From the NCBI GenBank assembly GCA_900322135.1, contig ONYP01000005.1:1-52091 (forward strand): a stretch of 52,091 bases of DNA, written 5' to 3'. Each line of letters opens with the position of its first letter. Positions within the stretch are counted from its first letter, which is position 1. A program made the position numbers and the translations under genes. Shown here piece after piece: positions 4,095-30,862 of this stretch. Origin of the DNA: an uncultured Prevotellaceae bacterium (GTDB lineage: Bacteria; Bacteroidota; Bacteroidia; Bacteroidales; Muribaculaceae). Under the pieces are notes generated by a model, which saw only the letters and a list, made by a program, of their open reading frames with translations, was not told the DNA's origin and did no database searches.

Positions 4095-4153
4095 GTTCAC
4101 GGTGTTCATGGTTCGGTAATCGTGAACAAATTGAACAAATGAACACCGTGAAC
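4095..4153. repeat. GTTCA array A: iteron-like repeats within a 15-bp inverted repeat
   Basis: GTTCACGGTGTTCAT (4095-4109) is a perfect inverted repeat of 4139-4153. Read on the minus strand, the right part has four GTTCA units with 9, 8 and 9 bp periodicity and matches arrays at 20302 and 30829. It lies between the RepA-like and Toprim genes, where an origin or operator would be expected. Confidence 0.85.
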
Positions 4154-4171
4154 ATTTTTAACTAACTGAAT

Positions 4172-5134
4172 ATGAATAAACAATATAAATATAGTTTAGC
4201 TAAGAAGGGCAAGTGGATCTGCCCTGAGTGCGGGCACAAGACCTTCGTGTGCTACGTCGACGAGAACGGTGACGTGCTTGACGAGAGCGTAGGTAAGTGT
4301 GACCGTGCCGACAAGTGCAATCATCACTACCCGCCGCGCGAGTATTTTCAGGACAACAACCTGCCGATGCCCCGCATGTCGCCAACGGTTCAGCCCAGCT
4401 TGCCTGCGTATGTACGGCCGAGCTACATGGATCCTGATCTGCTTAAGAGGTCGGTCTTGGGCACTGAAACCCACACCAATCACCTGGTAACGTATCTGGG
4501 TTCAAAGTTTGATGCTGAGACCGTCAAGCAGATGAAGCACGACTACTACATCGGCACCTCAAAGCATTGGCCCGGCGCTACTGTGTTCTGGCAGATTGAT
4601 CAGTTCGGCCACATCCACGCAGGTAAAATCATGCTGTATAACCCTGCGACCGGCAAGCGTGTTAAGGATCCGTTCCCACACGTCACCTGGGCTCACACGG
4701 CATTGGAACTGCCCAATTTCAGCTTGAAGCAGTGTCTCTTCGGTGAGCACCTTCTCCGCAAGCACCCGGACAAGAGCGTGGCCATCGTCGAGAGTGAAAA
4801 AACCGCGATCATCCTTGGCGGCGTCTTGGGCGACTGTATAGCCGTTGCCTGTGGTGGGTGTAGTAATCTCACACCGGCCATGTGCGGACCGCTGAAGGGT
4901 CGTGACGTCATCCTGTTCCCCGACAATGGGAAATATCATGAATGGGCTCAAAAGGGCTTGTCGCTGGCTAATTTGTTCAAGGGTCTGAGGGTGTCGCATT
5001 TTATGGAGAACTTGCCTGGTTGCATGCATGCCGGTGATGATATTGCAGATTACATTGTGAGAGAGTATATGGGTTGGGCTCAACGTTATGATGGTGTTGT
5101 ACCTCTTGACTTGGACCTCATCCGACTGAAATGA
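4172..5134 (+). CDS. Toprim/zinc-finger primase-like protein (DUF6371-like)
   Basis: 320 residues. The N-terminus has a zinc-binding pattern (CPECGH near 18-23, then KCDRADKCNHH), as in CHC2-like primases. The central region contains WPGATVFWQID and KIMLYN strands. A Toprim-like core follows: VAIVESEKTAIILGG (about 204-218), VACGGCSNLT and VILFPDNG. This layout matches proteins that Bacteroidales elements carry as DUF6371. A primase or primase-accessory role next to the RepA-like ATPase is likely. Assignment rests on motif recognition. Confidence 0.78.
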   Translation: MNKQYKYSLAKKGKWICPECGHKTFVCYVDENGDVLDESVGKCDRADKCNHHYPPREYFQDNNLPMPRMSPTVQPSLPAYVRPSYMDPDLLKRSVLGTETHTNHLVTYLGSKFDAETVKQMKHDYYIGTSKHWPGATVFWQIDQFGHIHAGKIMLYNPATGKRVKDPFPHVTWAHTALELPNFSLKQCLFGEHLLRKHPDKSVAIVESEKTAIILGGVLGDCIAVACGGCSNLTPAMCGPLKGRDVILFPDNGKYHEWAQKGLSLANLFKGLRVSHFMENLPGCMHAGDDIADYIVREYMGWAQRYDGVVPLDLDLIRLK

Positions 5135-5195
5135 ACTATTAACTGATGGCTGGGGTGGGTAACCCTCACCCCTGGCTTTTTAAAAATATCTGAAA

Positions 5196-6041
5196 ATGAC
5201 AAAATTAGTAATTAGAAAAGGAACCAAAAAGATTGATGCTCATCAGTACAAGGGTGATCTCGACATTAGCGAGCTCATCATTGCCGACACCGTTGAGGAA
5301 ATAGGTGTTGGGGCGTTCAGCGGATGTGCTAATCTCAAGATAATCACTCAGGGAACAAGTCTCCATACCATCGGCTGGGATGCATTTACCCGATGTAATT
5401 CCTTGAAGTCGTTGTATTTGTCTGATTCGGTCAAGCGAGTCGGTAGCGAAGCCTTTTCCTGCTCAGGCTTGACTTACGTTGAGTTTGAAGATAACGACGA
5501 CATAAGCATTTATAACTGTGCCTTCGCTTTTTGCAGACGACTTGCATGTGCGATCTTACCCTATGGCTTGAAACATATCTGCGGAGGGACCTTCCTTGGA
5601 TGTACCAAACTCGAGGACGTTTTCATCCCTGGGACTGTAAAGAGTATTGGAATGAAGGCGTTCAGTGAGGTCGCTGCCAAGCAGATAGAACTGCCTGATT
5701 CAGTCGAAGTAATTTATTCGAATGCGTTTGAAATGTCAAAACTCACCAGCATAGTCGTCCCCAATAGTGTTTTTGAGATTCATCATTCTGCCTTCGCTCA
5801 ATGCAGTGATTTAAGAAGTGTTGACGTCGGCAAGTCCGTTGTGTGCGTTGGAAAAATGGCCTTCGCGGAATGCCCTTCACTCAACGAGGTGACGTTCAGG
5901 AGCACCATTATCGGCTCCATCGGGACTTATGTCTTTAAGGGCTGTAAGGGCCTCAAGCGCATCAATGTGCCTGCCTGTGCGATGGACCAGTACAAGCGCT
6001 TATTGCCTAAGCATCTGCACAAGAAGCTGGTGGAATTCTGA
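5196..6041 (+). CDS. Cytoplasmic BspA-like leucine-rich repeat (LRR_5) protein
   Basis: 281 residues made almost entirely of LRR_5/BspA-type repeats of about 23 residues (for example VEEIGVGAFSGCANLK and VKSIGMKAFSEV), ending in a cap with LPKHLHKKLVEF. Unlike surface BspA proteins it has no signal peptide and no C-terminal sorting domain, so it should be cytoplasmic. It follows the Toprim gene by about 60 bp, is on the same strand and is the last gene before the opposite-strand cargo run. Role unknown; protein-protein recognition is the usual function of the fold. Confidence 0.82.
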   Translation: MTKLVIRKGTKKIDAHQYKGDLDISELIIADTVEEIGVGAFSGCANLKIITQGTSLHTIGWDAFTRCNSLKSLYLSDSVKRVGSEAFSCSGLTYVEFEDNDDISIYNCAFAFCRRLACAILPYGLKHICGGTFLGCTKLEDVFIPGTVKSIGMKAFSEVAAKQIELPDSVEVIYSNAFEMSKLTSIVVPNSVFEIHHSAFAQCSDLRSVDVGKSVVCVGKMAFAECPSLNEVTFRSTIIGSIGTYVFKGCKGLKRINVPACAMDQYKRLLPKHLHKKLVEF

Positions 6042-6143
6042 TAGCCCCCTCGTCTAAGCGTCATTCAGGATGCAGTGACAACATCATGGGAGCGGCGGTT
6101 AGTCGTTCCCTTTTTCGTGCCCATAGGTTGCTTCTGGGCGCGT

Positions 6144-6644: not shown

Positions 6645-6683
6645 CGTTTCTTGAACTTTAGCGCAGGTAGGTAGTTGTAGCAG

Positions 6684-7067: not shown

Positions 7068-7070
7068 AGC

Positions 7071-7697: not shown

Positions 7698-7709
7698 AAT
7701 AGATGGTTT

Positions 7710-8063: not shown

Positions 8064-9122
8064 TTATTGGTTTTGTTGGTCTAATGCCTTAGCGTAGTCG
8101 CCGTAGGTATCGACGATGACGATCTGGTCGAATTTCCTGTTGTAGCGCTGTGCCCATGATTGGACGGCCTCGTAGGCGCTCCTGGCCCCCTCTACCGATG
8201 AGCCGTTGACTGTGGCGGTACACAGGAAACCTATTTTCTTGCACCGTTGATCGCGCAACTGCTTCAGGCACCTGAAAATGACGTCGTGGAGTCGTTCCGG
8301 CGACGGGATACTCTTGAAAACGTGCTGTACTAGGGGCGGCTTACCGTCATAGCTCTTGCACGCGTGCCCTAAGTCATCTTGGTCGGCGCCCCTCAACACC
8401 GCCAGCCCTGTGGCCCCATAGCTCTCGGTATCGAATAGGCTACCCTCGCCAAGCCTGATTTTCTTATCCTGCGTACCAGTTAATATCATTCCTCGCAATT
8501 GGAAGGCAAAGCGGCCATCGCGGCACTCGGTCCATGCATCTACGTCGGGCACATGAACGAAGAGTTGACCTGCATATCGGATTTCCCGCTTTAAGTCAGC
8601 CCTTCCAGCATCGGTCGAGGCCACAAGGAACGCGGTACGGCTGATGCCGCCTTGCTTGTAGAGGAAGCTATCCTGGTCGTATTTTTCGGATAGCCTATAG
8701 AGCCTGGCGAAGAACTGCATGGCATCGGGTTGTCCTTCATCGGTAACAAAGTAGCAGTACTCTTCGCAGGGATATTCCCAGTCGGCCTCACGATAACAAC
8801 CGGTAACACCGTTAAATTTGAACCCATACTGCTGTAGGTCGGCTTTGAGCAACTGGTTACGGGCAATATTCTCATCAAGCGAATAACCGCCCCTAAAGGC
8901 TGTCAAGACCACGCATGTGTGCTGTTTAAAGGCTCGCTCTGCCCTCTCGAGGGTCAAGGCATCGTCATCGGCTGGTGCTGTTGCTGCAATCGCTATCTGG
9001 CCTGGCTTGAGGACTCCTCTTAGCAAATTACGGAGTGCCGCCATTCTCAGCCTTTGGCACCTTGCGTTCAGGTCAGCGTAAACCTGCTCTATATGCTGCT
9101 GTGATATCATTGACTCGTTCAC
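8064..9122 (-). CDS. Possible DUF3293 + macro-like protein, 352 aa
   Basis: Residues about 60-170 have the look of DUF3293: VVLTAFRGGYSLDEN, then a cluster with GCYREADWEYPCEEYCYFV and a helical LYRLSEKYDQDSFLY segment. The C-terminal about 120 residues (ATGLAVLRGADQDDLGH, RLHDVIFRCLKQLRDQRCKKIGF, AYEAVQSWAQ, QIVIVDTYGDYAKAL) follow the helix-strand order of the C-terminal half of macro domains, which bind ADP-ribose. Both assignments are by eye and moderate to weak. It is 15 bp after the methylase gene, so probably part of the same defence cargo. Confidence 0.6.
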   Translation of the reverse strand: MNESMISQQHIEQVYADLNARCQRLRMAALRNLLRGVLKPGQIAIAATAPADDDALTLERAERAFKQHTCVVLTAFRGGYSLDENIARNQLLKADLQQYGFKFNGVTGCYREADWEYPCEEYCYFVTDEGQPDAMQFFARLYRLSEKYDQDSFLYKQGGISRTAFLVASTDAGRADLKREIRYAGQLFVHVPDVDAWTECRDGRFAFQLRGMILTGTQDKKIRLGEGSLFDTESYGATGLAVLRGADQDDLGHACKSYDGKPPLVQHVFKSIPSPERLHDVIFRCLKQLRDQRCKKIGFLCTATVNGSSVEGARSAYEAVQSWAQRYNRKFDQIVIVDTYGDYAKALDQQNQ

Positions 9123-9137
9123 TGCTTACTTGATAAT

Positions 9138-12100
9138 TTAATCTTCTCCAGCCAATCTGAATTCAAGTTCATAATTTTTCACAAACTCGATTTCTTCTTC
9201 AGATAGACCATAAATCGGACCCAAGAAGTCGTCAATTCTGTCGATTATTGGCTTTGAACGAACAATTTTATATTCTTTAAATTCTGAAACATTATATCTT
9301 GAAGCACCTGATGACACTCGCACATTGGCATTTCTTTCTATATCAGCACAATATTCATTATATAAATTCTCAAGATATACAATCTGCCCGTCTGTGAATT
9401 CAGGTACAGGAAATGATTCAATTTCAAAACTCTTCCAATCAAGATTGTTCGAATATATCTGATAAAACCAGAATGATAAATTACTACTTAAAGCACAGCC
9501 AATTGCTTTGGCGTACTTTGAGCTAAGATATAATGGCTTTTCTTTCGTTGACCCGGTACTGTAGTCTGTTACCACTTTGAAATATCGTCCACCTGTAGTG
9601 CGATAATAGATGGGGCTTCCTGTTGGCTCTTTATATTCCGAAATCTCTGGAAATTTGAAAATCTTATCCAATATATCTTGCTCAATCGTCCTGCCTATTT
9701 TAGGTATACGCCCAACTTTCAGGTATTTTGAAACTTCAGCAAATTCCAAATTATTCACTAAATCTTGAAGGTTGAAGTTGCCTCCTTTGCGATACATTTT
9801 AGTAGAATAGATTCTCTCGAGGGGGGATAATGTTTTTTCAAACGACAGTATTGACGTGTTGACTGTCGCATTCTCAAACACAGGTTTTGGACGAACTGCA
9901 TATGAAGATATGCGCACAACTTCACAATTATCGAATAATAGTTTATGAACGCCAGTCAATGAATCACTTGATGTAATGGATATGGGTATAATATATGTCA
10001 TAAAACCGTTTCTCACTACACTATTGAATCCTTTTTCAATAAATAAGGTATAGGTGTCCAATGATCCTTTTTGAATGCCGGGTATAGTTTTCGCTGTTTT
10101 ATATTTTTGCTTGAAAAACCGCTTTTCTTCATTTGTGAGAGAAGCGCCATATGGTGGATTACCTATCACCACATCAAAACCATCTTTAACACCGAGCATC
10201 CACTCTGCATCAAAGTACGGCGACGATGCATTTTGGTCAAACATGTCCCAACCAGCAAGCAGTTCAGCCTCACTATGACCGACAAAGCCGGTGTCTTCGA
10301 TGGCGTTGGCGAGGGCTTGGCGGGTGGTCTTGATGGCTTCTTTCAACCGCTGCTTGTCCACATTGCGCTTGGCCAAGAAAATCTTGTGGTTCAATTCCTT
10401 GAGGCGCTCTTTATATTTGCGAACATCCTTATTACTCTCGACCAATGAACCATCATACTCAACAGGGATAAGCGTGTTGGCTGCGACAAATTTCGATTCC
10501 AAATTGGGCAAAGGACGAATACCAAAATTAGATATAGCATCAGTGGTCGGCTTCTGGTCTACGACGAGCGATATGAAGAAGCGCAGCTTGGAGATTTGAG
10601 CAGCAATGGGAAGAATGTCCACGCCGTAGATACAGTGCTCTATGAGGTAGAGCTTACGGGCATAGTCCGGGTCGTTGATGCTGCGGTTAAATGCTTCCTC
10701 GATGTCGGCGAGTCGGGCCTTGCGCTCATCCTCGGTTTCCGTAGAGAAGGCCTTGCGTGAGCGCTCAATGGCGAGGTCAATCATGAACTCCTTCCACATC
10801 TCATTGGTGGGATCGAGCTGGCGCAGCATATGCACCATCTGCTGGAGCACACCCATCGGGAAGGCACCCGAGCCACAGGCGGGGTCAAGCACACGGCAGT
10901 TGTACAGCGCCGCCATCACCGTCTTGCGCTGCTGCTCATCAAGGTTGGTCTCGTCGGTGGCATAATTGAGCAAGCGCCGGTATTCGGGCTCCAGTTCGTC
11001 GCCACAGATGCGTTTGAGGTGCGCCACCAGACTCTCGTCCACCATATACTGCACAATCTCGCGGGGCGTATAGAACGAACCCGTCTGTTTGCGTGCAGAT
11101 TTTTGTGTATCTTCATCATATGATGCCAAAAGATTCTCGAACACCTTGCCCAACAACTCGGGGTCGAGCGACACTTCCTGATCTAGCGGGGTATTCTCTT
11201 CGATGGTAAATGAATAGCGTTTTAAGATATCTATAATGCCTCGAACGGAAACACTCCTTCTATTTCTATCACCATACCACTCTGAAAGGTCAACACTATG
11301 GCCAACCTCGTCACCGAAGAACAGGTAGTCGGGCAGGCTCAGCTGCTCTAGGCTCTCGCGAAGCTCTGAGAATCCATCATAATACAATCCACGCGGCTTA
11401 TCATCCAGACAGTCGAACAACCCACCATTGAGGAAAGGTACGCTGCTGTTGGCCAAAGCGACAAACTTCTCGGCACCACCCTCCATGAACTCGCTCTCGT
11501 AGCGCATCAAATTGTTCACATTGTAGTCACGGTTCAGACGGTTACCCGTGACTGTAGCACGGAAGCGGCGGTTGTTGGCCACGTCCTTGCCCTCGGCCAC
11601 AATGGGACAGTTGAGCATGGCGAAAAACAGGTTCTGAAGCACTAGACGATAGTAGTTGCTCTTCTCGGGGTTATAAATCAGATTCTCGCGGTCGTGAGGA
11701 TTGAAATTCTCGATAAGGTTTTCGCGGATATACTCTTCATTGAAGAACTCCTCGGGAATCAATTTCTTCTGCTTAAGGAACCACACAAATATCAGGCGCG
11801 TGATCAAGCGGATGCAGGCCTCGTGATTGAATTTGGCATCGTCTTCACGGGTGTTAAGATCGTTGGGGAAGCGTGCCACTTGTACAGCCCAGGCATACCA
11901 GTCACTAAGCTCGCTGTAGAATTTCTTGGTCAACAGCTCGCTGGAGAATACCTCCATCCAATGCTTATAGAGTTCCTCAAACGTGGAATACTGCTTGTCG
12001 CCCAAGCTCACAAGGATGTCCAAGTGACCAGGATGCGTTTTAGAGCATTTGATATTACGCAGGATGCATACCTTGCCGACCTTCTGCCCTGTGGCCTGTC

Positions 12101-12599
12101 TCCATTGCTGGGAATACTCCATTCGCTCACAGGTGGATAGAGAGATTAGGTCGTCCTGACGTATCAACAGTATCACCGGGTTGGCACAGGCGATGTGATT
12201 AAATGCGCGAGTGAGTGCTGCTGCTGCCGTGCGGGTAAGGTTGGCATCATGCTTGGCATCACATGCAAAGATGAACATACCGTCATACTTGTCACCTCGT
12301 TGCATCATGTTTGTGATGGCTTCAAGGTTCTCATCGGTTTTGCTACCCAGCAGTGACTGGTCATTTACAATACCGATGAAGAAGGTTTCATCAATGGAGT
12401 CAAGCGCATCGATTAAATACTGAGGCATGGGGCCATCATAAAGGTCTGCAACTTGAATAGGCTGAGCGCTATCACGGTCAAACTGGATGCCCAGCTTGTC
12501 GAGCAGCGTAGCGGTGGCGTTAAATAATGCACCCTTGTCGCGGGCAGTGAATTCACTCAGTGCTCTGATGAATTCTTGGCGTTTATCTTCTTGTGACAT
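9138..12599 (-). CDS. Eco57I-like adenine-specific DNA methylase / restriction protein
   Basis: About 1153 residues. The N-terminal 500 residues are of a kind seen before type IIG/ISP-like methylases and do not show an obvious catalytic motif to me. The methylase core has motif I LDPACGSGAFPMG (about residue 570) and motif IV NPPYG (about 812), which define N6-adenine amino-methylases. The remainder is a target-recognition-like region (YYRTTGGRYFKV, FWFYQIYSNNLDWKSFEIESFPVPE). A longer reading frame begins at TTG 12611; the ATG at 12599 gives a 17-bp overlap with the helicase gene, indicating coupled translation. Likely modification, and possibly recognition, subunit of a restriction-type system. 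Confidence 0.85.
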   Translation of the reverse strand: MSQEDKRQEFIRALSEFTARDKGALFNATATLLDKLGIQFDRDSAQPIQVADLYDGPMPQYLIDALDSIDETFFIGIVNDQSLLGSKTDENLEAITNMMQRGDKYDGMFIFACDAKHDANLTRTAAAALTRAFNHIACANPVILLIRQDDLISLSTCERMEYSQQWRQATGQKVGKVCILRNIKCSKTHPGHLDILVSLGDKQYSTFEELYKHWMEVFSSELLTKKFYSELSDWYAWAVQVARFPNDLNTREDDAKFNHEACIRLITRLIFVWFLKQKKLIPEEFFNEEYIRENLIENFNPHDRENLIYNPEKSNYYRLVLQNLFFAMLNCPIVAEGKDVANNRRFRATVTGNRLNRDYNVNNLMRYESEFMEGGAEKFVALANSSVPFLNGGLFDCLDDKPRGLYYDGFSELRESLEQLSLPDYLFFGDEVGHSVDLSEWYGDRNRRSVSVRGIIDILKRYSFTIEENTPLDQEVSLDPELLGKVFENLLASYDEDTQKSARKQTGSFYTPREIVQYMVDESLVAHLKRICGDELEPEYRRLLNYATDETNLDEQQRKTVMAALYNCRVLDPACGSGAFPMGVLQQMVHMLRQLDPTNEMWKEFMIDLAIERSRKAFSTETEDERKARLADIEEAFNRSINDPDYARKLYLIEHCIYGVDILPIAAQISKLRFFISLVVDQKPTTDAISNFGIRPLPNLESKFVAANTLIPVEYDGSLVESNKDVRKYKERLKELNHKIFLAKRNVDKQRLKEAIKTTRQALANAIEDTGFVGHSEAELLAGWDMFDQNASSPYFDAEWMLGVKDGFDVVIGNPPYGASLTNEEKRFFKQKYKTAKTIPGIQKGSLDTYTLFIEKGFNSVVRNGFMTYIIPISITSSDSLTGVHKLLFDNCEVVRISSYAVRPKPVFENATVNTSILSFEKTLSPLERIYSTKMYRKGGNFNLQDLVNNLEFAEVSKYLKVGRIPKIGRTIEQDILDKIFKFPEISEYKEPTGSPIYYRTTGGRYFKVVTDYSTGSTKEKPLYLSSKYAKAIGCALSSNLSFWFYQIYSNNLDWKSFEIESFPVPEFTDGQIVYLENLYNEYCADIERNANVRVSSGASRYNVSEFKEYKIVRSKPIIDRIDDFLGPIYGLSEEEIEFVKNYELEFRLAGED

Positions 12600-15500
12600 A
12601 TTCCCAAACAATTAAGTCAAAGTTCTCAGTTTTGAATTTATCTTCCAGTAGCTGCTGCTTGCGGTCGGCAGCAGGAGTGCTAATAATGCGGCGGCGCAGT
12701 TTGTCCTTGAGGTTGCTCATGGCTTGCTGGGGCACATGAGACTGCATCCACTGCTTGAGCACGGCTGAGAGGCGTGTGATGCGCTCAGTGTCGTTGTCGG
12801 TGATCCAGGCGGGAACGAAACGGTCGGCTTTCTTATTCTGTCGCAAGAACTCGAGGACTTCGGCCTTGTTAATCTCTTTAATCTGGACCTCGGAGTCGAC
12901 AGGCTGGCACACGAGGTAGAGTTCAGTGTACTTGTGATCCTTTTTGCCCTCAGGCTTCTTAGGATAGCCAACAAGAGCAATAAGGCTTTCGGGCATGTCG
13001 GGGAAGGCCTCTGAACCATTTTGGAAGCCCGAGAATACTCCGTTAGGTATCTTGCGATAGAAGTCCTGCTGCCGCTCGTAATACTCGACAAGATCCTGTC
13101 TGTAGGTCTCAAACGAGAAATCCTTGAGCGACAAGGTGCGCGGCGACTCGATGTCCGAGATACTGTTCTCGGTCAGTTCCTTGAGCAGACGGTCGGCATT
13201 CTTGTCTTGAATGGTATTGTCCTGAACCATTTGCAGATATTTCTCGTTGGGGGGCAGAACCTCGGTGCCGACAAGGTTCATGATGGTCATTCGATTCTGG
13301 ATGCGGGCTTCGAGCGCCAAATACTCCTCAAATGATGTAGCGGGCCAGAAGTTGACGCAAGAGATGGTCTTGTTGGGGGAGCCGATGCGGTCGATACGTC
13401 CGAAGCGTTGGATGAGGCGCACTGGGTTCCAGTGAATATCGTAGTTGATCTGCAGGTCGGCATCCTGGAAGTTCTGACCCTCGCTGAGACAGTCGGTGGC
13501 GATGAGAATGTCGATGCCGTCGTCGAGCAGCTGAGCGTAGCGGGGGCGATGCTGATGAATCAGTTCCTTCCAGAGGTCGTAAGGTACAACCCAGCGCCGT
13601 TTCTCGTCGTTGAAATAGCGCTCCCTGTCAAGATTAGCCTCGTCATAAAGGCTGCTCCAGTCCAGCTCGTTGTGCATCTTGCTGAAAGGCGCAAAGCTTT
13701 GCAGTACCTCGGTGAAATTGGACTTGGAATGGTTGCCGGTTGTATAAATGTTCTGGCCTGATACCGATGCCATGCGGTCGAAGCCACGGGCCTGAAGCTC
13801 GTCGAACAGGAACTTCGCTGTGTCGGCATAGGCCGTGAAGATGACCACCTTTTTGTTGGGCAAGGTCTTCTTCTTGTTAAGTATTTCGGTAAGCTTATCG
13901 AGCTTGAGGTCTTGCTCCTGCTGTGAGCGGTACTTCTTCTCAAAGTCCTGAAGAGCCTTGTAAATCTTGGTCAATTGATTCACGTCGTGCTGGAGACCGC
14001 GCTTGAAGCCACCCAAGTTCTTGAGGTCTGACAGCTTGATCTCGCCCTTACGCAGCGAGAAGGTGTCGTCGATGATGTCATCATCCTCATCGTTGATATC
14101 GTCCTCTGGGTTGGGAAGTGTGCCGTTGGCCTTGTTCTCCTCAAAGGCGAGCACCAGTTGCAACGTCTGCTCGTGGATATCCAGCACCTTCTTGATGGTG
14201 GTCATACACGAGTACCATGAACTCTCCAGACGCTTCAGGAACAGGATGCTCATCATTTTAACGAGGAAACGCTCACGGTTGATGTCATCGTTCCATTCAG
14301 CAGCGGCCTCCTTGCGTGCTGCCTTGGGGGTCTCATGGAGATACATACTCGGTTGGTAGGCTGTGAGGGCCAAATCCTCGAATGCTTTATATATCTGTTC
14401 AGTCGAGGTGAACGGCCCGAAGTGGTCCACGCCTTGATAGACGTTATCTGGAGCGGCCTTCTCGGGGAAGCCCAGATCCTCGCCTAGGGTCTTCTCGATG
14501 AGTTTACGGGTGCGGGCGACAATCAGCTTATCCGTCAGGTTAAAGAAGCGCTGGGGCAGCATCTTGATAAAGCTGCCGATGGTCCTATCGGGCTCGTCGC
14601 ACCATTGCTTGTACTTGTACTGCGCGTCTCTGAAGGTGTTGCTCAAGGACTCCACTCCAAACTCGGCGTTGTCAAAAGCCTGGTCGTCACCGTGGCCGAT
14701 AAGATTGAACTGACCCTTCACGTCTTTAAGGCCGGTATTAATGGGAGTAGCAGAGAGCATCAGCACCTTCACGTCACGGCTCTCTTGGCCTGGCTGGTTC
14801 TTGATGAGGGACTCCAGCAGGTCGATGTAACGTGAGGACTTCTCGTTACGCAGGTTATGGCTCTCGTCGATGACCACGAGAATTCGTTTGCGTGTCTGTA
14901 GGTAGTCAAGTCTGTAGCGGTTATAGGAGAGCTGCATGCGGTCATTCTGGAAGTCTGTGTGGAAGCGCACTTGATAGTCGAACTCGTCTTTCTCAAATCG
15001 GGATTGGGCACCCTTAAGGTATTGTGTCCAGTTGTGCTCTAGTTTCTTAGGGCATAGCAGGACAGTGGTGTAGTTCTGCGTCTCGAAGTACTTGATGACG
15101 GCTAGCGCCGAGAAGGTCTTACCCAAACCGACGGCATCTGCAAGAATAGCGCCGTTGTACTTGCGCAGCATCTTGATGAGCGAGATAACGCCCTTCTGCT
15201 GATAGTTGAACAGCGTGTTCCAGATGACGCTAGTCTGCAACAGGCTCATGTCCTTCTGGTGCTCAATGCCACCTTCCAGGTCAAGGTCTGCGTTAAACAG
15301 TTCAAACAGGATCTTGTAGTAGATCTCCTCGGGTGAGTATTTGCGGAAGTACTCCTTGATCTTGCGGATGAAATACTCCTTCACCGGCACCTTGGGAGAG
15401 CGCTTGTTGTCGCTATCCTCGGGGACCTCGGTGCGTGCCTTGGCCCAGATATCCTCGTACCACTTGCGCAGCTCGGTGTAGTCGGCGTTACTGTTGTTGC

Positions 15501-16002
15501 AGGTCTCGGCGATATTCAGCTCGACGTTGGGCACGGCCTTCAAGCCGATGCCTGCCGGGGTCAGGTTGCTGGAGCCCGTCACGTAATAGTTGGAGTGAGT
15601 CGGGTTGCCGTTCCTGAAGATATAGGCCTTGGCGTGGCAGAAGTCGGGTATCTCGGCACGCATATCAACATTATCACGCTCGAGGAACGCGATGGCCTGC
15701 CTGGCATGCTTATCGAGGTTGCCGATGTTGGATATGTCCATATCATCGCTCAGCAGGTTGACGATCACATCCTTCTTGTAGTCGTCACCCACCATCTCAG
15801 ACGAAATGATGCGGTAATAGTTCTCCTCGGGCAGTTCCTCGTATAGCTTGCTGAGGGAGAAGATCGTGAAATAGCCAGTCACGATATCCATCTTGCCTGT
15901 TTCCCCGGTATCTTTACTGGAGTAGGTCTTCAAGAAATCCCACACGGTAACAATGTCTATACCATCATTCGGGTAGCGGTCAACTTTATTGTCTATCAGC
16001 AT
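12583..16002 (-). CDS. PLD-nuclease-SNF2 helicase fusion (defence-type)
   Basis: 1139 residues. The N-terminal phospholipase-D-type nuclease domain has HAKAYIF (about 123) and GSSNLT (about 143). The SNF2/superfamily 2 helicase has Walker A ADAVGLGKT (about 288-296), DESH (379-382), SATP (417-420), and motif VI QRFGRIDRIG (about 862-872) preceded by ATDCLSEGQNFQ. A long charged insert lies around 600-680. SNF2 helicases fused or linked to PLD nucleases beside adenine methylases occur in anti-phage systems (DISARM has DrmD, DrmMI and DrmC as separate proteins). Here the nuclease and helicase are one chain. Overlaps the methylase gene. Confidence 0.88.
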   Translation of the reverse strand: MLIDNKVDRYPNDGIDIVTVWDFLKTYSSKDTGETGKMDIVTGYFTIFSLSKLYEELPEENYYRIISSEMVGDDYKKDVIVNLLSDDMDISNIGNLDKHARQAIAFLERDNVDMRAEIPDFCHAKAYIFRNGNPTHSNYYVTGSSNLTPAGIGLKAVPNVELNIAETCNNSNADYTELRKWYEDIWAKARTEVPEDSDNKRSPKVPVKEYFIRKIKEYFRKYSPEEIYYKILFELFNADLDLEGGIEHQKDMSLLQTSVIWNTLFNYQQKGVISLIKMLRKYNGAILADAVGLGKTFSALAVIKYFETQNYTTVLLCPKKLEHNWTQYLKGAQSRFEKDEFDYQVRFHTDFQNDRMQLSYNRYRLDYLQTRKRILVVIDESHNLRNEKSSRYIDLLESLIKNQPGQESRDVKVLMLSATPINTGLKDVKGQFNLIGHGDDQAFDNAEFGVESLSNTFRDAQYKYKQWCDEPDRTIGSFIKMLPQRFFNLTDKLIVARTRKLIEKTLGEDLGFPEKAAPDNVYQGVDHFGPFTSTEQIYKAFEDLALTAYQPSMYLHETPKAARKEAAAEWNDDINRERFLVKMMSILFLKRLESSWYSCMTTIKKVLDIHEQTLQLVLAFEENKANGTLPNPEDDINDEDDDIIDDTFSLRKGEIKLSDLKNLGGFKRGLQHDVNQLTKIYKALQDFEKKYRSQQEQDLKLDKLTEILNKKKTLPNKKVVIFTAYADTAKFLFDELQARGFDRMASVSGQNIYTTGNHSKSNFTEVLQSFAPFSKMHNELDWSSLYDEANLDRERYFNDEKRRWVVPYDLWKELIHQHRPRYAQLLDDGIDILIATDCLSEGQNFQDADLQINYDIHWNPVRLIQRFGRIDRIGSPNKTISCVNFWPATSFEEYLALEARIQNRMTIMNLVGTEVLPPNEKYLQMVQDNTIQDKNADRLLKELTENSISDIESPRTLSLKDFSFETYRQDLVEYYERQQDFYRKIPNGVFSGFQNGSEAFPDMPESLIALVGYPKKPEGKKDHKYTELYLVCQPVDSEVQIKEINKAEVLEFLRQNKKADRFVPAWITDNDTERITRLSAVLKQWMQSHVPQQAMSNLKDKLRRRIISTPAADRKQQLLEDKFKTENFDLIVWEYVTRR

Positions 16003-16079
16003 AGTATTATCGGTTATTGCTGTTCATACTTTCAAACCTGCAAAGATAATGATTTTTCTTGAAAAATCCATGTAAAATA

Positions 16080-17072: not shown

Positions 17073-17116
17073 ATAATTATGATTTAAATTTCTACTGATA
17101 ACTATTACACGCGCGG

Positions 17117-17124
17117 CAAAGTTA
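17117..17124 (-). promoter_or_regulatory. Candidate -7 box of the cargo operon
   Basis: TAACTTTG on the minus strand, about 45 bp upstream of the chosen start of the CoiA-like gene. A matching -33 element is not obvious. The divergent gap 17073-17283 holds no gene. Confidence 0.5.
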
Positions 17125-17283
17125 CAGCTAAACAGTGCCATTTTTAGGCGCTATAAATCCTAAAAAAGTTAATTTTTTCGTGAAATTGATGTGAAACGTG
17201 AAAAACGCGCGCCATTTCCATCCCAAGCCTTATCCTTGAATAGAGCGTAAATGCTTGATGTGTAAATTTTTAAGTCAAATAAT

Positions 17284-18323: not shown

Positions 18324-18339
18324 CATTAACTTATTGATT

Positions 18340-20070
18340 ATGAAGATAGATAGTAATTTCGTATTTAGAGTTAATGTTAGCAACGACAGCTACACGACCA
18401 AGAGCGAAGCCTCGGCCTGTCTCAGTAGGGCCGGGGCTGAGGCTGTCGGCAAGGTGAAAATGGCGTTCAGGGAGACGAGCCTTACCGTTGACCAGTTTCT
18501 TCAGCAAGCCCTCACCGGCCACTCGTTCTGTAACCTGTTCGACTATGACCCCAACCAGAAGTATTGGATCGAGACGAGCGCGGGCAAGCGCTACCAGTCA
18601 TATCCAGTTTACCGTCAGGGCCGCAACAAGGGCTGTATGAAGTTGAATTTCAAGAGTGACAGGTTCTTTCGTGGGAGCCAGACAGTGTTCGTGGATATCG
18701 ATTACACGCGGTTCAAGACGATACCCGAGTACCTGGATTGCCTCACGCTCAAGCCTACCTGTGCATATATGTCCTATTCCGATAAGCTGGAGAAAGATGG
18801 CATCACGTCTCGCCGGTTCAGGTTGGTTTATGTGCTGGACCGTGAGTTGAACAAAATGAACATGAACATCGTGAACAGGTATCTCACGGACTGCATCATC
18901 AGGGACACAGGGGAACCTATGGCCGATGAATGTGGTACCAGGGCAAGCCAGTATTTCAATGGTGTCAGCGGTAATGGCGAGTATTATGTCACGTACAACA
19001 TCTTTTCACGGCTTGATTTTCCTGATAGCCTGCCGGATGTTACTGTTCAACCACCGTCCCCAACGTCGCAACAAACATCACTGCCGACCGTTGAATTTGA
19101 TGATCGCCTGTTGCATGATATGGGCACTATGGACTACCAGACGTTCATGCACTATAATTCACTGAAATACTGTTACTTTTATAGGACTGATCGCGCAGAG
19201 TGGATAGATGGGCTTTACCAGCTGACCGACGAGAGCTACCTTCAGCTATGGTGGCACCGAGAGACGATCACCGACGGCAACCATAGGCGGCGTACACTCT
19301 TTAAGCGCGCCTGCCTGAGAAGATTGATGAACTATGATGTAGACGCTAACACGCTGCTGTTCAATATGTATTTGGATTTTCATCGGTTCATCGACAACAG
19401 CGACCATATCATTACATTGGACTCTCTCACGCGAAGAACCAGGCGGGCGATGACGATGACCTATGACGAGCTGAGGGATTATTGCAAGTATGAGATCAAT
19501 TACTGGAAGAACCACAGGCCAAAGTTCATCATGCATCCCAAAGCGCCGAAGTCACAGGCATTCATTAACTACGTCACCAAGCGAATCCATTATGCTGAAC
19601 TTGACCTCAGCTATGACAGGACGAAATCGGTTCAGGACAATGCCGCTGCGCTTGGTATATCCCCGGCCACACTGTATCGATATTGCAGTGACAGGTACAT
19701 CGAGACGAATCCAGGGAAGGGCCAGACGTATGTTCAGAAGCGTCAAGCCAAGAAACAGGACAAAGCTGACAAGAAGGCCACGTTTATGCTGTATTATGAT
19801 CCGAACCTGTCAGCGGCCAAGAATCGTGAGAAAATGTTACAGTATGGCTTGAATCTATCAGTTGGGACGATACGTAACTGGGGTAAGGAATACGCCATGC
19901 CATCCACACCCACTCCGTCAACGTCCCCATCACCCGAGAGCAGCATCCTCAACTTAGGCCCGATCAATTTTACCGTGCCGTCGTTTAAAGGCGCATGGTG
20001 GAACTCATGGGAAAACGATCCTCTATATGCTGAGTATGAGGCCAAGTGGAGAGAAGCATGTAGACGTTGA
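18340..20070 (+). CDS. Primase-polymerase-like replication protein
   Basis: 576 residues from the ATG at 18340 (an in-frame TTG lies two codons upstream). The archaeo-eukaryotic primase type is suggested by TVFVDIDYTRF (DID about 119-121), CAYMSYSDKLEKDG and RRFRLVYVLDREL, then ASQYFNGVSGNGEYYV, the order seen in plasmid and phage primase-polymerases. Two HTH-like segments follow: VQDNAAALGISPATLYRYC (about 440) and KNREKMLQYGLNLSVGTIRNWG (about 500). The tail is Pro/Ser-rich. A strong terminator follows. Likely the initiator or primase of the element; the exact family is uncertain. Confidence 0.72.
   Translation: MKIDSNFVFRVNVSNDSYTTKSEASACLSRAGAEAVGKVKMAFRETSLTVDQFLQQALTGHSFCNLFDYDPNQKYWIETSAGKRYQSYPVYRQGRNKGCMKLNFKSDRFFRGSQTVFVDIDYTRFKTIPEYLDCLTLKPTCAYMSYSDKLEKDGITSRRFRLVYVLDRELNKMNMNIVNRYLTDCIIRDTGEPMADECGTRASQYFNGVSGNGEYYVTYNIFSRLDFPDSLPDVTVQPPSPTSQQTSLPTVEFDDRLLHDMGTMDYQTFMHYNSLKYCYFYRTDRAEWIDGLYQLTDESYLQLWWHRETITDGNHRRRTLFKRACLRRLMNYDVDANTLLFNMYLDFHRFIDNSDHIITLDSLTRRTRRAMTMTYDELRDYCKYEINYWKNHRPKFIMHPKAPKSQAFINYVTKRIHYAELDLSYDRTKSVQDNAAALGISPATLYRYCSDRYIETNPGKGQTYVQKRQAKKQDKADKKATFMLYYDPNLSAAKNREKMLQYGLNLSVGTIRNWGKEYAMPSTPTPSTSPSPESSILNLGPINFTVPSFKGAWWNSWENDPLYAEYEAKWREACRR
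18847..18877 (+). repeat. GTTCA cluster inside the primase-like gene
   Basis: On the minus strand four GTTCA units lie within 31 bp, resembling the intergenic arrays but with different spacing. The plus strand encodes the Asn/Met-rich segment LNKMNMNIVNRY. Confidence 0.6.
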
Positions 20071-20101
20071 TTTTTCTGAATTTTTACTCATTATATTTTA
20101 C

Positions 20102-20140
20102 CGGCAGGACACCCATCAAAAGGTGTCCTGCCGGGTTTCA
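20102..20140 (+). terminator. Strong terminator after the primase-like gene
   Basis: A 12-bp perfect stem CGGCAGGACACC / GGTGTCCTGCCG (20102-20113, 20122-20133) with an 8-nt loop is followed by T-rich sequence. Confidence 0.85.
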
Positions 20141-20188
20141 TTTTTCATCTCAAAAGCATGAGTAGTTATTTGATATAACTACTACTAT

Positions 20189-20285
20189 TATAGTAGAATG
20201 AGAAAAACGCACAATTTTTGTGCATTATTATCTGGTTTTGAGGGGTATTATAATATAGTAGAATGAGAAAAACGCACAATTTTTG
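20189..20285 (+). repeat. Two 32-bp direct repeats 65 bp apart
   Basis: Positions 20189-20220 and 20254-20285 are identical and include TAGTAGAATGAGAAAAACGC. The first copy runs into a small hairpin (GCACAA/TTGTGC). They lie in the 370-bp gene-free gap between the primase-like gene and the small gene at 20438, right before GTTCA array B. Confidence 0.9.
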
Positions 20286-20301
20286 ACAATCCCCCGATAT
20301 T

Positions 20302-20335
20302 GTTCACGGTGTTCAAATGTTCAAGCTGTTCACGT
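20302..20335 (+). repeat. GTTCA array B: four iteron-like units
   Basis: Begins GTTCACGGTGTTCAAATG, with GTTCA at offsets 0, 9, 17 and 26. It is nearly identical over 34 bp to array C (30829-30862) and matches the right part of array A in reverse orientation. Confidence 0.88.
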
Positions 20336-20437
20336 TCAATCTTCACCCCCATGACAACCCCGAAGAAGCCTTATATATATATAACTGAGATTTAACTAAC
20401 ATTTTTATTAACAACTAATTACAATAACAACGACATT

Positions 20438-23539: not shown

Positions 23540-23845
23540 ATGAACAACTTGAACAAAATGAACACGAACATCAATGAGAGTCGCGAATACAAAGTGGCTA
23601 AAGAACTGGAGCGAGTACTTAATGACTACAGCTTCAATCCCGACCGATTTACCGCAGCCATCCCATCGTTCCACAAGACGCTGGAGCAGAACTTTATGAG
23701 GCTGATTATCGCCTGTATCAAGTTTATGGCCGATGATAGCAACCGTTTCATCGACCTGCGTAACAAAGGTTCCCACGAGGCAGCGGTCATTCTTGCCAAA
23801 GCTTTAGAGGAACATAAGGACGAAATATACTTACCATTCATTTAA
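23540..23845 (+). CDS. Unknown small protein, 101 aa
   Basis: Not recognised. The ATG at 23540 is preferred because the alternative at 23498 lies inside a hairpin stem. The N-terminus MNNLNKMNTNINESREYKVA is encoded by a GTTCA-type cluster (minus strand, 23541-23572) and may owe its composition to that DNA element. The rest is helical (FMRLIIACIKFMADDSNRFI). Confidence 0.6.
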   Translation: MNNLNKMNTNINESREYKVAKELERVLNDYSFNPDRFTAAIPSFHKTLEQNFMRLIIACIKFMADDSNRFIDLRNKGSHEAAVILAKALEEHKDEIYLPFI

Positions 23846-27123: not shown

Positions 27124-27156
27124 TACAACATGAGACTATGTAGAGTGAACATGAGA

Positions 27157-27242: not shown

Positions 27243-29684
27243 TTAATTCTGCGAGACGCGCACAGCACGGACGGTAAACCCGAGGTGGCGCATTTGGTCG
27301 TTGCACCCGTAGTCCCAATTGCCCATCTCGAATTGGAGGCCGTAAGCGTTGGGCGGGTAGTAATCGTAGCTCGAGTAGCCGGGGTGGAGCGTGCGCGACC
27401 AATCGTAGCCGTAAGAGCCCGCGCCGACGAGCGACTCGTGCCAGCGGTTGCCGGCAGCGGGCAAGAACATGGCGTTACCGTTCGGGCCGGTGACCAAATG
27501 ACCCTTCACGCCATTGCGCTGAGTCCACTGCCAAGTGCAAGAATTAACCAGCTCCAGAATCTGCCCCTTCGACGGCATGCGGCCACCGGGATAATGGGCG
27601 CACGCCGCGTCGTCAGACGGATCCAACTCCGTCTTGTTATCCACAAAGCCTTTGTAACCATACAAACTATTGGTGCAGTACTTGGTATATCCACTATAAT
27701 CATCGTCGCTCCGGTACCACTTGTAGGTGTTGTTGTCATAGTAATCCTTGGGATCGGTCTCGCCCCAGGCGAAGTAGTCGCCGTAGTCCTCTGGACTACT
27801 GGCTCCCACGTTGCGCGTCGCCCAGATCGTGCCACTGGGCAGGCCCAGGTCAACCCAGTCACCCTCCTCGTCCTCCTTCTCAATCTTGAAATTCTCTCCC
27901 TTCCTGAAAATGTGGGTACCGAAGATGGTCACATAGGGACATACGCGGTAGGTCTTGTCCTTCTCAAGTGCATAGGAACTGATGTAGGTCTCAATGTACT
28001 GAGTCTGGTTGGTAGCTGAGAAGCCATCGTCGTAGTAGGGCTTCTCGCTGACATAAGTCCAATTTTCGCGGCTCTCGTCTGCTAGACCGTAGGCGAAGCC
28101 GTAGTCCTGTTCGGGCAGCAATTGGTAGAATGGCTTGGTCAAGTCCATCGAGAAGCGCACCTGCTTGGTATCATTGGGCATCGGGCTGTCGGGTGACACT
28201 TGGAAGTTGGTAATGCTGGGGGTAATACCGCAAAAGTCATAGAGTTTTGTCTCCAACAGTGTGATATTCTGTTTCCACTTGAGATTCTTCTTGCCTAACT
28301 TGAACTTGGCTTCCAAGCCGATGTCCACACCTGCCGAGAAGGTCACCTGGTCGTCGTAGTCCAGCTCGATGTCCTTCTTGAGAGTGAACGCAAAGTTGCC
28401 CTCGGCTTTGACCCACGGACAGATGGGCACGCCCACGTTGAAGATGTCGTTAGCTCCGTATAGGCTCACGTCAAGCGTGGGGTGCAGTGTGGCGGTAACG
28501 GCACCGTTGATACCCACCTTTGGAGCGAAAGTCTCGCTCAAGCGGTCGTTCAGATGACCGTCGCCCAGGGCACCGCAAGAGAAGCTGGTGGTGAAATTGT
28601 GGTTCTTGCCCGTGATGGGGTCGGGCGTGGGCGTGTAGATATAGCTGAAGCCACCCTCGGCCTGGGCTGCCACAAAACGGCTCTTGAGATACACCTCGCC
28701 GCTGAGGTCAGCTGTCAGGAACACGTCGATGCGCGGCGTGAACACGATGGGTATGTAGCCAGCCATTACCACGACGGGCTTGAGATTGACGGTGAACAGC
28801 TTGATGCCGTCATCGCCCAGCAGGGGCACCGACCCCTCGGCCGAAATCTTGCCCAGAATGTCGGCACTGATGTCGGCATTTCCTTTCAGGCCGATGCGCT
28901 GAACTTTCTTGTTGCGAGAGTTGTATATGAAATTCATATCAATCGAGGGATTGATATAGGCAATGAAACTCACAGGGTAAGTTTTGTCCTGATCGCCATC
29001 GAGGACAGCCGCTTCATCGGCTGCCGACACGTTGCTGATGATTTTTATGCCGCTACTGCCGATTTTCACGCCCAGACGGAGGCTGGTGGAGAAACCAACG
29101 CGTTCGGGAGCCTGGCCTGGGACCTGAATGGTGACGTACTGGCCCTGCTCCTGCATGGGGACGGGCAGGTCGTAGTCGCCGTCGGGAATCACCTCCTCGA
29201 GTGAGGCGTTGGTGGTGGTCATCACGCACTGGCCGCCGGAAGTCTGTACCGACTCGACGCGGCGCAGGAAGCCCACCGGGGCAGTGTCGGTGATGCCGCT
29301 AACAATGATTTCGCCAATTTTGGGTTCGGCACCCGGATCACAGGTGACGGTGACCGAGCCATCAGTGACAGTGATGACGCGCCCCTCGGTGGGGCCATCG
29401 TCGCCATAGACATGCACAACGGCGGGAGCCTCAGCCCCGCCCAGGATGATGTCGATGATGACGTTGATGTCGGCGATGTTGATTTCGCCGTCACCGTTCA
29501 CATCGGCAGCAGCGGTGAAGCCGTTGCCGTCAAGGATGAGGTCAATCACGACGTTGATGTCAGCGATGTTGACCTCAAGATCGCCATTCACATCGCCATA
29601 GAGCCTCTGCTGCGCATAGGCTGTGGCGGGTAGCATCAGTGCTCCTAACAGCAGAATGAGGGATTGTAGGACTTTCTTCATCAT
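27243..29684 (-). CDS. Secreted protein with N-terminal dockerin and C-terminal FISUMP-like domain
   Basis: 813 residues. Signal peptide (1-24, ending AYAQ), then directly a two-repeat dockerin (about 27-85; GDVNGDLEVNIADINVVID and a second calcium loop DVNGDGEINIADINV). A long central beta-rich region follows, and a C-terminal domain (about 610-813) opens with WVDLGLPSGTIWATRNVG and contains GGRMPSKGQILEL and the FTVRAVR end, the Fibrobacter succinogenes paralog (FISUMP) type. Likely surface or extracellular, possibly binding a cohesin. It lies inside the mobile element as non-replication cargo. The dockerin at the N-terminus is unusual. Confidence 0.85.
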   Translation of the reverse strand: MMKKVLQSLILLLGALMLPATAYAQQRLYGDVNGDLEVNIADINVVIDLILDGNGFTAAADVNGDGEINIADINVIIDIILGGAEAPAVVHVYGDDGPTEGRVITVTDGSVTVTCDPGAEPKIGEIIVSGITDTAPVGFLRRVESVQTSGGQCVMTTTNASLEEVIPDGDYDLPVPMQEQGQYVTIQVPGQAPERVGFSTSLRLGVKIGSSGIKIISNVSAADEAAVLDGDQDKTYPVSFIAYINPSIDMNFIYNSRNKKVQRIGLKGNADISADILGKISAEGSVPLLGDDGIKLFTVNLKPVVVMAGYIPIVFTPRIDVFLTADLSGEVYLKSRFVAAQAEGGFSYIYTPTPDPITGKNHNFTTSFSCGALGDGHLNDRLSETFAPKVGINGAVTATLHPTLDVSLYGANDIFNVGVPICPWVKAEGNFAFTLKKDIELDYDDQVTFSAGVDIGLEAKFKLGKKNLKWKQNITLLETKLYDFCGITPSITNFQVSPDSPMPNDTKQVRFSMDLTKPFYQLLPEQDYGFAYGLADESRENWTYVSEKPYYDDGFSATNQTQYIETYISSYALEKDKTYRVCPYVTIFGTHIFRKGENFKIEKEDEEGDWVDLGLPSGTIWATRNVGASSPEDYGDYFAWGETDPKDYYDNNTYKWYRSDDDYSGYTKYCTNSLYGYKGFVDNKTELDPSDDAACAHYPGGRMPSKGQILELVNSCTWQWTQRNGVKGHLVTGPNGNAMFLPAAGNRWHESLVGAGSYGYDWSRTLHPGYSSYDYYPPNAYGLQFEMGNWDYGCNDQMRHLGFTVRAVRVSQN

Positions 29685-30028
29685 ATTATCGATTTAGTTG
29701 GATCATCAAGTATTCCACCCGCAAAGTTAGTGATTTATTGCTATCTACAAAATATTACGATGTGATAAGCCCCAAAATGTCGTGCTGTGCATCACCTGTC
29801 GCTGACAATATGTCGCGCTACTATGTGAAAATAGCGCCTTGGTTGTCAGCTATAAGCAAAAATGGCAGACTGGTTTTCTCTGGCACAGTAATTGACGGCT
29901 GATTAAACGAATTCGCTTTTTGACATGATGTTTGAATGTGTTAATTAACTTTTTTGTATAATTAATTTTTGTTTTTTATATGATTACAAACAACATTTTT
30001 TTTAATCATTTTTTTAAAAACAAACATT
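29685..30028. other. Gene-free AT-rich gap
   Basis: About 340 bp between the divergent dockerin-protein gene and the small plus-strand gene. AT-rich, especially 29930-30028. No ORF, repeat or hairpin that I would defend. Confidence 0.5.
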
Positions 30029-30406
30029 ATGACAAAATTTAGTGAATTTTTAGCTGCCAACACCGGCAGCGCAGGCAATGGTGAGGTAGAATTCTACACT
30101 GAGAATCAGGTACTACGAGCCTACGACTGGGACGAGGACAGAATCCGTGCGATTAGGTGGCATTTTGATAACCTAAGACGATGGAAGGATGATGTCGACA
30201 TCGAATCTGAAAGTAATGAGGACCTCTTGGAGCAGGTGGAGGAAATGTACATCAGGTATCTGGTCGAGACTAGATTAATTGATGAAATGGTCCGCGTTAA
30301 CAAAGCAACAAGAGTTGATCCGGAGATTCTAGTCAATGGACTCATTGCGGAAGTAGGTGCATGCGAGCGTTTCATTGCCGAAAACGGCATCGATGCTTTG
30401 GGCTAA
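30029..30406 (+). CDS. Unknown acidic protein, 125 aa
   Basis: Not recognised. Acidic and helical (DWDEDRIRAIRWHFDNLRRWKDDVD, then SNEDLLEQVEEMYIRYLVET). Stand-alone gene with a good terminator downstream and an AT-rich upstream region, so it has its own transcription unit. Acidic single-gene units in such elements are sometimes DNA mimics or anti-restriction proteins, but nothing here proves that. Confidence 0.65.
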   Translation: MTKFSEFLAANTGSAGNGEVEFYTENQVLRAYDWDEDRIRAIRWHFDNLRRWKDDVDIESESNEDLLEQVEEMYIRYLVETRLIDEMVRVNKATRVDPEILVNGLIAEVGACERFIAENGIDALG

Positions 30407-30425
30407 ATACCTCATCTAACAATTA

Positions 30426-30464
30426 GAGCGAGATCGGAATTATCCGGCCTCGTTCTTTTTTTTT
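30426..30464 (+). terminator. Terminator after the 125-aa gene
   Basis: Imperfect stem GAGCGAGATCGGA / TCCGGCCTCGTTC followed by nine T (30456-30464). Confidence 0.85.
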
Positions 30465-30828
30465 GATTAGCTATACTGCACAATCCAATGACGAAGAAAA
30501 AAAGAAGTCGAGACCTGCACCTCTTCGGTGTTAGCCTCGTTAGCTTCTTCTCCAGACTCGCTGTCGGTTTGATTATGCCGTCTTGAGGGCACGGTCTCCC
30601 CGACAGGTGATAACGCCTGGTGATGGCGGTGCTGGACGACTCTTCGCCGCCCAGTCCATACCATCGGGTTATATGTTGTCTTTGCCCCTCATGCCGCCAG
30701 CGTGCTCATTGTTAAGCCAGCGGTCCTCTTGGGGGCATGTGTTTCTCTTACATATAAGGGTTCTTCCGGCCCAAAATTACCAGGTATCCACGCACGATGA
30801 TGGCATGCTCATGGGTAGGGTGGGGCGT
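30465..30828. other. GC-rich gene-free gap before GTTCA array C
   Basis: About 360 bp, richer in G+C than other gaps here. Short ORFs exist on both strands, but none has coding character or neighbour spacing. It could hold an origin or transfer site or a non-coding RNA; no motif is decisive. Confidence 0.4.
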
Positions 30829-30862
30829 GTTCACGGTGTTCAAATGTTCAAGTTGTTCACGT
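30829..30862 (+). repeat. GTTCA array C: four iteron-like units
   Basis: Same 34-bp pattern as array B (one internal difference, C to T at the 25th base, within the 34 bp), starting GTTCACGGTGTTCAAATG. It ends 16 bp before the stop codon of the convergent integrase gene. Confidence 0.88.

Follow-up and report, generated by a model that had tools for sequence, protein, structure and literature searches.

Candidate iterons of a RepA-like helicase in an integrative element of an uncultured Prevotellaceae bacterium

The 52,091-nucleotide stretch analysed here (contig ONYP01000005.1 of assembly GCA_900322135.1, from an uncultured Prevotellaceae bacterium; 'the window' below) contains an integrative element of approximately 31.5 kb, integrated at a tRNA-Arg gene, in which the pentanucleotide GTTCA recurs in short, regularly spaced arrays. 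Comparison with related loci suggests that the element's RepA-like helicase probably recognises these arrays as its iterons, by means of a helix–turn–helix (HTH) domain at its C terminus, and that array A, which occupies the intergenic gap between the helicase gene and a predicted primase gene, is the likely origin of replication. The arrays, their neighbours and the open reading frames (ORFs) concerned are arranged along the element as follows.

1003–32531, no strand assigned: integrative element; limits inferred from repeats of the tRNA end, with a relative in genome G187 aligning up to both ends
2457–2792, plus strand: excisionase-like HTH_17/MerR-type protein (HTH_17 2.5e-5, just below the Pfam cut-off; PHROG 66 2.6e-9)
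2789–4087, plus strand: RepA-like AAA_25 helicase (Pfam AAA_25 5.7e-16), with a C-terminal HTH at residues 406–430 (about 4004–4078)
4095–4153, no strand assigned: array A, the proposed origin; two GTTCA units and a degenerate third (plus strand) facing four units (minus strand)
4172–5134, plus strand: DUF6371 protein with a zinc ribbon and a predicted DnaG-type primase fold (Pfam 8.2e-58)
18334–20070, plus strand: large protein with weak HTH matches (HTH_17 3.8e-4, below the Pfam cut-off), primase-like by eye only
18848–18876, minus strand: array D, four GTTCA units within ORF 18334–20070; aligned position in G187, 42759–42787
20302–20338, plus strand: array B, five GTTCA units in a single direction
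23541–23563, minus strand: array E, three GTTCA units; aligned position in G187, 28951–28972
30829–30859, plus strand: array C, four GTTCA units, 19 bases beyond the integrase stop codon
30879–32324, minus strand: tyrosine integrase (Phage_integrase 3.2e-7; PHROG 216 3.9e-22)

Arrays and genes at the proposed origin

An earlier note on this DNA had described arrays A, B and C, and all three are real: the exact pattern GTTCA-N4-GTTCA-N3-GTTCA-N4-GTTCA is found at 4123–4153 (minus strand), 20302–20332 (plus strand) and 30829–30859 (plus strand), and nowhere in 100 dinucleotide shuffles, marking the arrays as non-random. The start-to-start unit spacing of 9, 8 and 9 bp, the single base by which arrays B and C differ over 34 bp, and the perfect 15-bp inverted repeat of array A (4095–4109 and 4139–4153, the second arm facing the first) were likewise confirmed. 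Beyond these three, the window has no four-unit match even at up to three mismatches; a scan for places where three or more GTTCA units cluster revealed arrays D and E and the fifth unit of array B. All five clusters in the window lie between the element limits, in keeping with the earlier placement of the arrays inside the element, and 118 permuted 5-mers, serving as the control, average 0.29 clusters per window.

Array A is separated by 7 bases from the stop codon of the helicase gene before it and by 18 bases from the start codon of the DUF6371 gene after it; the RepA-like and Toprim genes between which the array had been placed encode an AAA_25 helicase and a DUF6371 protein with a predicted DnaG-type fold. 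Fold matches of the helicase include DnaB, T7 gp4, T4 gp41 and KaiC, and the titled matches among the 50 listed are DnaB, T7, T4, KaiC-type and Dmc1 proteins. In its structural model, the last three helices (residues 392–407, 412–419 and 423–429) are arranged like an HTH (mean pLDDT 60). Pfam recognises AAA_25 in all 14 helicase relatives scanned and DnaB_C in 10 of them, and in their tails HTH_23 and Sigma70_r4_2 are each found in 7 of the 14; no D5 or MCM family is among the 25 of 34 Pfam families listed for these relatives. The DUF6371 model has 27 PDB matches with E ≤ 1e-3, all of them DnaG-type, T7, T4-primosome or Twinkle (moderate TM scores on the query, 0.32–0.47), and is consistent with a DnaG/TOPRIM-type primase fold in addition to the zinc ribbon.

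Repeat words and helicase tails among relatives

Helicase relatives occur in 27 of the 393 genomes searched from the order, in 14 of 395 from the phylum and in 8 plasmid records, with the helicase–array–primase module present on plasmids of Bacteroides, Phocaeicola and Butyricimonas; a helicase search of viral contigs gave no relative. Many of the relatives carry an array of units of approximately 5 bp, mostly 9 bp apart, directly after the helicase gene or within its 3′ end. The word itself varies, with GTTCA(C), GTTAC(A), GTACG, GTCCC(A), GTTCC, GTGCC, TTTCC, GTACA and others represented; word classes were assigned by eye for 48 of 57 helicase loci, and the covariation and leave-one-out tests described below used no classes.

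A periodic 5-mer downstream of the helicase gene exceeded all 100 shuffles in 28 of 37 loci. Among the nine misses, L181 and L196 hold their repeats within the 3′ end of the helicase gene and L209 is cut by a contig end; L197–L199 probably also have repeats inside the gene, because they end in nearly the same peptide as L181 and L196. With spacings of 8–10 bp, the gap was strictly the best window in 22 of 41 loci, each compared with 55 to 184 other windows. A spacing of 9 bp dominates, accounting for 75 of 129 intervals (loci with at least three pairs; the total includes ten 7-bp intervals from an unrelated repeat in L189). Of the 48 tabulated loci, some of which are near-identical, 13 have facing half-arrays of 3+3 units and 6 have facing half-arrays of 3+4 units. 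Nine stretches of about 19–40 kb around helicase genes from outside the window's genus were scanned for the class word: eight have all of its clusters at the helicase gene, and in the ninth, G505, no cluster reached the threshold. Tandem short repeats, regularly spaced and next to the gene of the proposed initiator, give the locus the layout of an iteron-type origin.

The word tends to follow the tail of the helicase. Over 38 non-redundant loci, word similarity correlates with HTH identity once core identity has been removed (partial r 0.416; reached in 0 of 5,000 permutations, the largest giving 0.200), and three other settings of the test give 0.293, 0.281 and 0.404, again with 0 of 5,000 permutations each. 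When the comparison is slid over helicase residues 126–430, the signal is 0.416 on the HTH and at most 0.19 in segments not overlapping it, the values of core segments being drawn towards zero because these segments are part of the controlled core. Sequences more than 90% identical in the core had been dropped (57 to 43), and L209 and L247 (incomplete tails) and L189 (an unalignable tail, yet a GTTAC array) were left out of these two comparisons and of the leave-one-out test; removal of loci with too few periodic pairs reduced the remaining 40 to 38 for the two comparisons and to 33 for the leave-one-out test. Binding of the helicase to the arrays is supported by this covariation, by which the repeat word appears matched to the DNA-binding domain of its cognate initiator. 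Of the two roles that the earlier note had offered, initiator-binding iterons or operators of one element-wide regulator, the first is well supported for array A, the C-terminal HTH of the helicase being the likely binder. The iteron reading also gains from the DnaG-type fold predicted for the neighbouring gene product, from the occurrence of the module on plasmids and from the units of array C, which are kept in ten loci reached through its flank.

In the operator reading, either the HTH_17 excisionase-like protein, or the helicase as a repressor, would bind the arrays and thereby regulate the operon along with other element genes. The end of array A 18 bases ahead of the primase start codon would suit such control, as would the arrays adjoining the integrase and recombination genes, and the motif is weakly correlated with the HTH_17 protein. 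That correlation, 0.242 with the HTH_17 protein compared over its whole length, is nevertheless below the 0.444 that the helicase HTH gives over the 25 loci compared, just as DUF6371 reaches 0.162 against 0.542 for the helicase HTH in 24 common loci. Array D lies inside an ORF, and outside the genus the class-word clusters keep to the helicase gene, in eight of the nine stretches with none in the ninth. We consider operators an unlikely explanation of the arrays; arrays B and C, for which the evidence consists of conservation and motif identity, may yet have such a role, and autoregulation by the helicase could coexist with origin function.

Several observations, besides the two limits on the comparisons just given, weigh against the arrays being iterons of the helicase. 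Confidence in the helicase model is low overall (mean pLDDT 60), and in 19 of 41 loci the gap was not strictly the best window. In the leave-one-out test the nearest HTH recovers the word for 21.7 of 33 loci, compared with 17.0 for the nearest core and 4.0 at random; with cores less than 60% identical the values are 11.7, 10.0 and 3.0, and the recognition helix alone recovers 16.8, 13.2 and 12.3 at the three limits used. In this test the HTH predicts the word only moderately better than the helicase core does. L222 and L227, which were found by the helicase alone (cores 46% and 45% identical to that of the window), have tails like those of the GTTCA group. Downstream of their helicase gene there is no array; a search for GTTCA showed a cluster of it upstream in each, GTTCA being the sole clustering word of 60 permuted words, a result that favours the helicase as reader of the word. 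On the opposite side, these clusters are irregular, with spacings of 6, 12 and 9 in L222 and of 6 and 11 in L227. L131 contains a 22-unit GTTCA array 1.9 kb from a helicase with a GTTCA-type tail, and as support counts for less because it was selected through its array; in all three loci the arrays lie away from the gap. L224 has three GTTCA units among its upstream GTTCC units and a tail that is not of the GTTCA kind, and in the viral contig L136, GTTCAA arrays (4600–5320) lie just downstream of a DnaB-like gene without an aligned C-terminal HTH.

A further point on the same side is that array A, taken as RNA (window 4085–4175), forms a strong hairpin (−31 kcal/mol, z −4.84) in the gap that separates the helicase gene from the primase gene, with AUUUUU after it. 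The facing arms might then act as a terminator or attenuator, a role that would leave unexplained a lineage-specific word every 9 bp, the one-directional arrays (B to E, and that of L206) and the covariation with the DNA-binding tail, and that is accordingly very improbable as the explanation of the arrays.

Conservation and wider occurrence of the pattern

Conservation in related elements, which the earlier note had proposed as a check, is borne out for arrays A and C. Counting the window, the four closest relatives of the primase gene, found by protein and at least 59% identical, have array A; it was not seen in the fifth-nearest, G256 (50% identity), and in G017 its arrangement is changed. 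No GTTCA array lies beside the gene in DUF6371 relatives of at most 50% identity (L155–L180 and L139–L150), except for a weak cluster in L155, and helicase homologues later showed other words at the site where these distant relatives had no GTTCA.

For array C, 101 genomes of the genus were searched with a 129-base query taken from the upstream flank and not from the array, and 19 of them gave some match. Where the match extends to query base 103 of 129 or beyond, as it does in 10 loci (9 genomes), all four units are kept, with variation in the first spacer (CGGT, TCTT, GCTT and ACTT), the first unit of L282 being partly within the aligned flank. The other 15 flank matches, just 44–75 bases long and confined to the first 91 bases of the flank, run into other DNA; the start of the flank is a dispersed repeat in the genus. 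An earlier column count on copies had given 20 of 20 invariant columns in units, 6 of 11 in spacers and 36 of 70 in flanks (20 of 20 and 7 of 11 for units and spacers in the right arm of array A). It was not relied on, being partly circular: most rows had been retrieved with the exact pattern, so the unit columns are invariant largely by construction, which detracts from the case for iterons. The approximately 330 bp adjoining array C (30497–30828) have no Rfam match and belong to a stretch that shares 96% identity with G187; their part 30700–30760 recurs at other places in the genus.

The expectation that the pattern occurs only in the element was nearly borne out in the genome of the window (82.55% complete). 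At up to two mismatches there are four matches, three in the window and one on contig C49, and the exact three-unit pattern falls at the identical four places; the copy on C49 sits in approximately 400 bp that are 93% identical to window 19943–20344, a duplicated fragment of element DNA. In the species-genome collection the 31-bp pattern by itself lacks specificity for the element, occurring in at least 117 stretches. Of the 117 listed, 14 have the element's own flanks (by eye) and 103 look unrelated, 84 of the latter lying outside any ORF of at least 100 amino acids. A search by pattern alone was ruled out as evidence of kinship because of these 103 unrelated-looking stretches.

Clustering of neighbouring ORFs (first 20 groups listed) is dominated by the element's relatives together with L035, L059, L065, L108, L131 and L136; of the remaining groups among these 20, one consists of near-identical viral contigs and none of the others exceeds three loci. 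Among the 117 listed stretches and 6 viral ones, five (L039, L060, L121, L131 and L136) encode a helicase relative. The arrays of L016–L132 are mostly intergenic, of GTTCA type with mixed 8- and 9-bp spacing, and come from many Bacteroidota and some other genomes; facing copies often follow, and ORF clustering found no common neighbour gene. In one of these stretches, from a goat-reticulum genome (L035), a DUF6371 relative (2225–3187) is encoded approximately 1.3 kb away from a GTTCA array that is otherwise unrelated, and no helicase relative was found in the stretch.

The 103 unrelated-looking loci, mostly outside ORFs, and the recurrence of the array B segment beside surface-protein genes would suit neutral intergenic tandem repeats, common in Bacteroidota and fixed by chance beside the helicase gene. 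Neutral repeats would not be expected to keep their units while spacers vary, in loci not picked by the array, to take up a position beside one gene family across many lineages, or to covary with one 25-residue segment, and chance fixation is very improbable as the explanation of the arrays.

The array B segment consists of the 3′ end of ORF 18334–20070 and the array, and recurs beside chromosomal genes resembling those of dockerin/leucine-rich surface proteins (L011, C49:3112–3511; L015:2279–2698; L069, near 2445), with a nearly identical array-side junction in C49, G164 and G187. The genes adjoining the C49 copy (genome G000) resemble, by eye, leucine-rich and dockerin surface proteins. G187 belongs to the same genus as the window, and its relative element, which aligns to both element ends, has clusters aligned to all five window arrays and a second copy of array B. 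On its contig C11 (about 32.2–41.5 kb), approximately 9 kb lie between two direct array B copies (L013:12140–12340 and L014:1320–1580), and the copy beside the ORF has lost part of the terminator and the original stop codon. These 9 kb raised the idea of array B as a recombination site, which is merely noted because homology of the flanks explains the shared breakpoints equally well.

Proposed mechanism, known systems and other features of the element

With the arrays as iterons of the helicase, array A most likely functions as the replication origin, and the predicted helicase, primase and binding activities would act in sequence. Helicase subunits would dock through the C-terminal HTH on the two facing half-arrays of array A, the helicase ring would be loaded beside these, and synthesis would be started by the primase from the neighbouring DUF6371 gene, enabling copying of the excised element. 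At arrays B to E the same helicase would find additional places to dock, with possible roles in the control of copy number, recombination or gene expression. More tentatively, and with confidence short of an even chance, the mobile elements of Bacteroidota may share a phylum-wide family of self-docking replicative helicases, in which the recognition helix and the 5-bp word (often GT and three variable bases) diversify together, facing 3+3 half-arrays give one site per hexamer subunit and, in the window's lineage, sites have spread to integrase and recombination genes, tying excision to replication.

D5-type and DnaB-type helicases are only distant relatives. Plasmid RSF1010 combines a RepA-type hexameric helicase, a primase and iterons, the iterons being bound by a separate protein, RepC (RepA/RepC/RepB′), whereas in the window the DNA-reading domain appears fused to the helicase. 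According to the passages of PMC7581432 that deal with SaPI Rep and SCCmec Cch2, these are helicases with a C-terminal domain binding double-stranded DNA, with iterons directly downstream (5 nt in Cch2) and a priming protein in the same operon; Cch2 is placed with the D5 helicase family and compared with MCM and DnaB. The window helicase resembles them, by sequence and model, in its C-terminal HTH and the array directly downstream. It differs in its AAA_25/DnaB/T7/KaiC-like scaffold, in its Sigma70-r4/HTH_23-like tail, in its DnaG-like primase and in a word diversified over many lineages. By analogy, the module would work like SaPI Rep and Cch2; it is not filed as a member because the helicase scaffold differs, the assignments being other than D5-type.

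PLE RepA, in the portion of PMC7145576 that describes it, belongs to RepA_N, with neither helicase nor primase activity predicted. Its iteron origin and the proposed one share repeats bound by an element-encoded initiator (binding being predicted for the window element), which in the window, unlike in PLE, would be a helicase. A likeness to the Tn4555/NBU1 integrative and mobilizable elements (IMEs), as far as PMC5704250 treats them, is seen in plasmid NZ_CP103142.1 (L251), where the gene order is Tn4555 tnpA, integrase, tnpC, excisionase, AAA ATPase, DUF6371 and hypothetical protein, and where the AAA ATPase gene has a GTCCC array within its 3′ end. The window element differs from these IMEs in its cargo, and a Pfam scan of 20 window proteins, to which several of the element's ORFs did not belong, recognised no relaxase.

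No description of this helicase family with its arrays was found in the open-licence PMC literature, a search outside which most subscription papers fall. The upkeep of excised IMEs stands under the heading 'An Unexplored World' in a section of a 2017 review (PMC5704250), and the window offers a concrete candidate origin, initiator and primase, found on plasmids and chromosomes of Bacteroidota. The family is a natural series of DNA-binding tails beside predicted target words; because each tail comes with a predicted word, the recognition code of one HTH type and the incompatibility of elements become directly testable.

Two further features complete the element and its integration site.

930–1002, plus strand: tRNA-Arg (CCG), integration target (ARAGORN, Rfam)
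20186–20285, plus strand: two 35-bp direct repeats adjoining array B

The 14-bp sequence CCCCACGGGTTCAC, the 3′ end of tRNA-Arg, occurs at 989, at 1046 (1046–1059) and at 32518 (32518–32531). At the left end of the element the tRNA-Arg 3′ end is tandemly duplicated (about 1022–1060; window 965–1060), as if scarred by an earlier integration or excision. The integrase sits near the far end, away from tRNA-Arg. A Pfam scan found no catalytic domain in the product of ORF 18334–20070, and profile scans of the window proteins show that the element also encodes ERF and exonuclease recombination genes and a resolvase.

Defence-like cargo occupies window 8064–17141, with a PglX/DISARM-like methyltransferase and a large SNF2/DISARM-like helicase, both below the NCBIfam cut-offs; the G187 relative has different genes at this place. 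Directly after the DUF6371 gene lies a BspA-type leucine-rich repeat gene (window 5196–6041), which is kept in G187.

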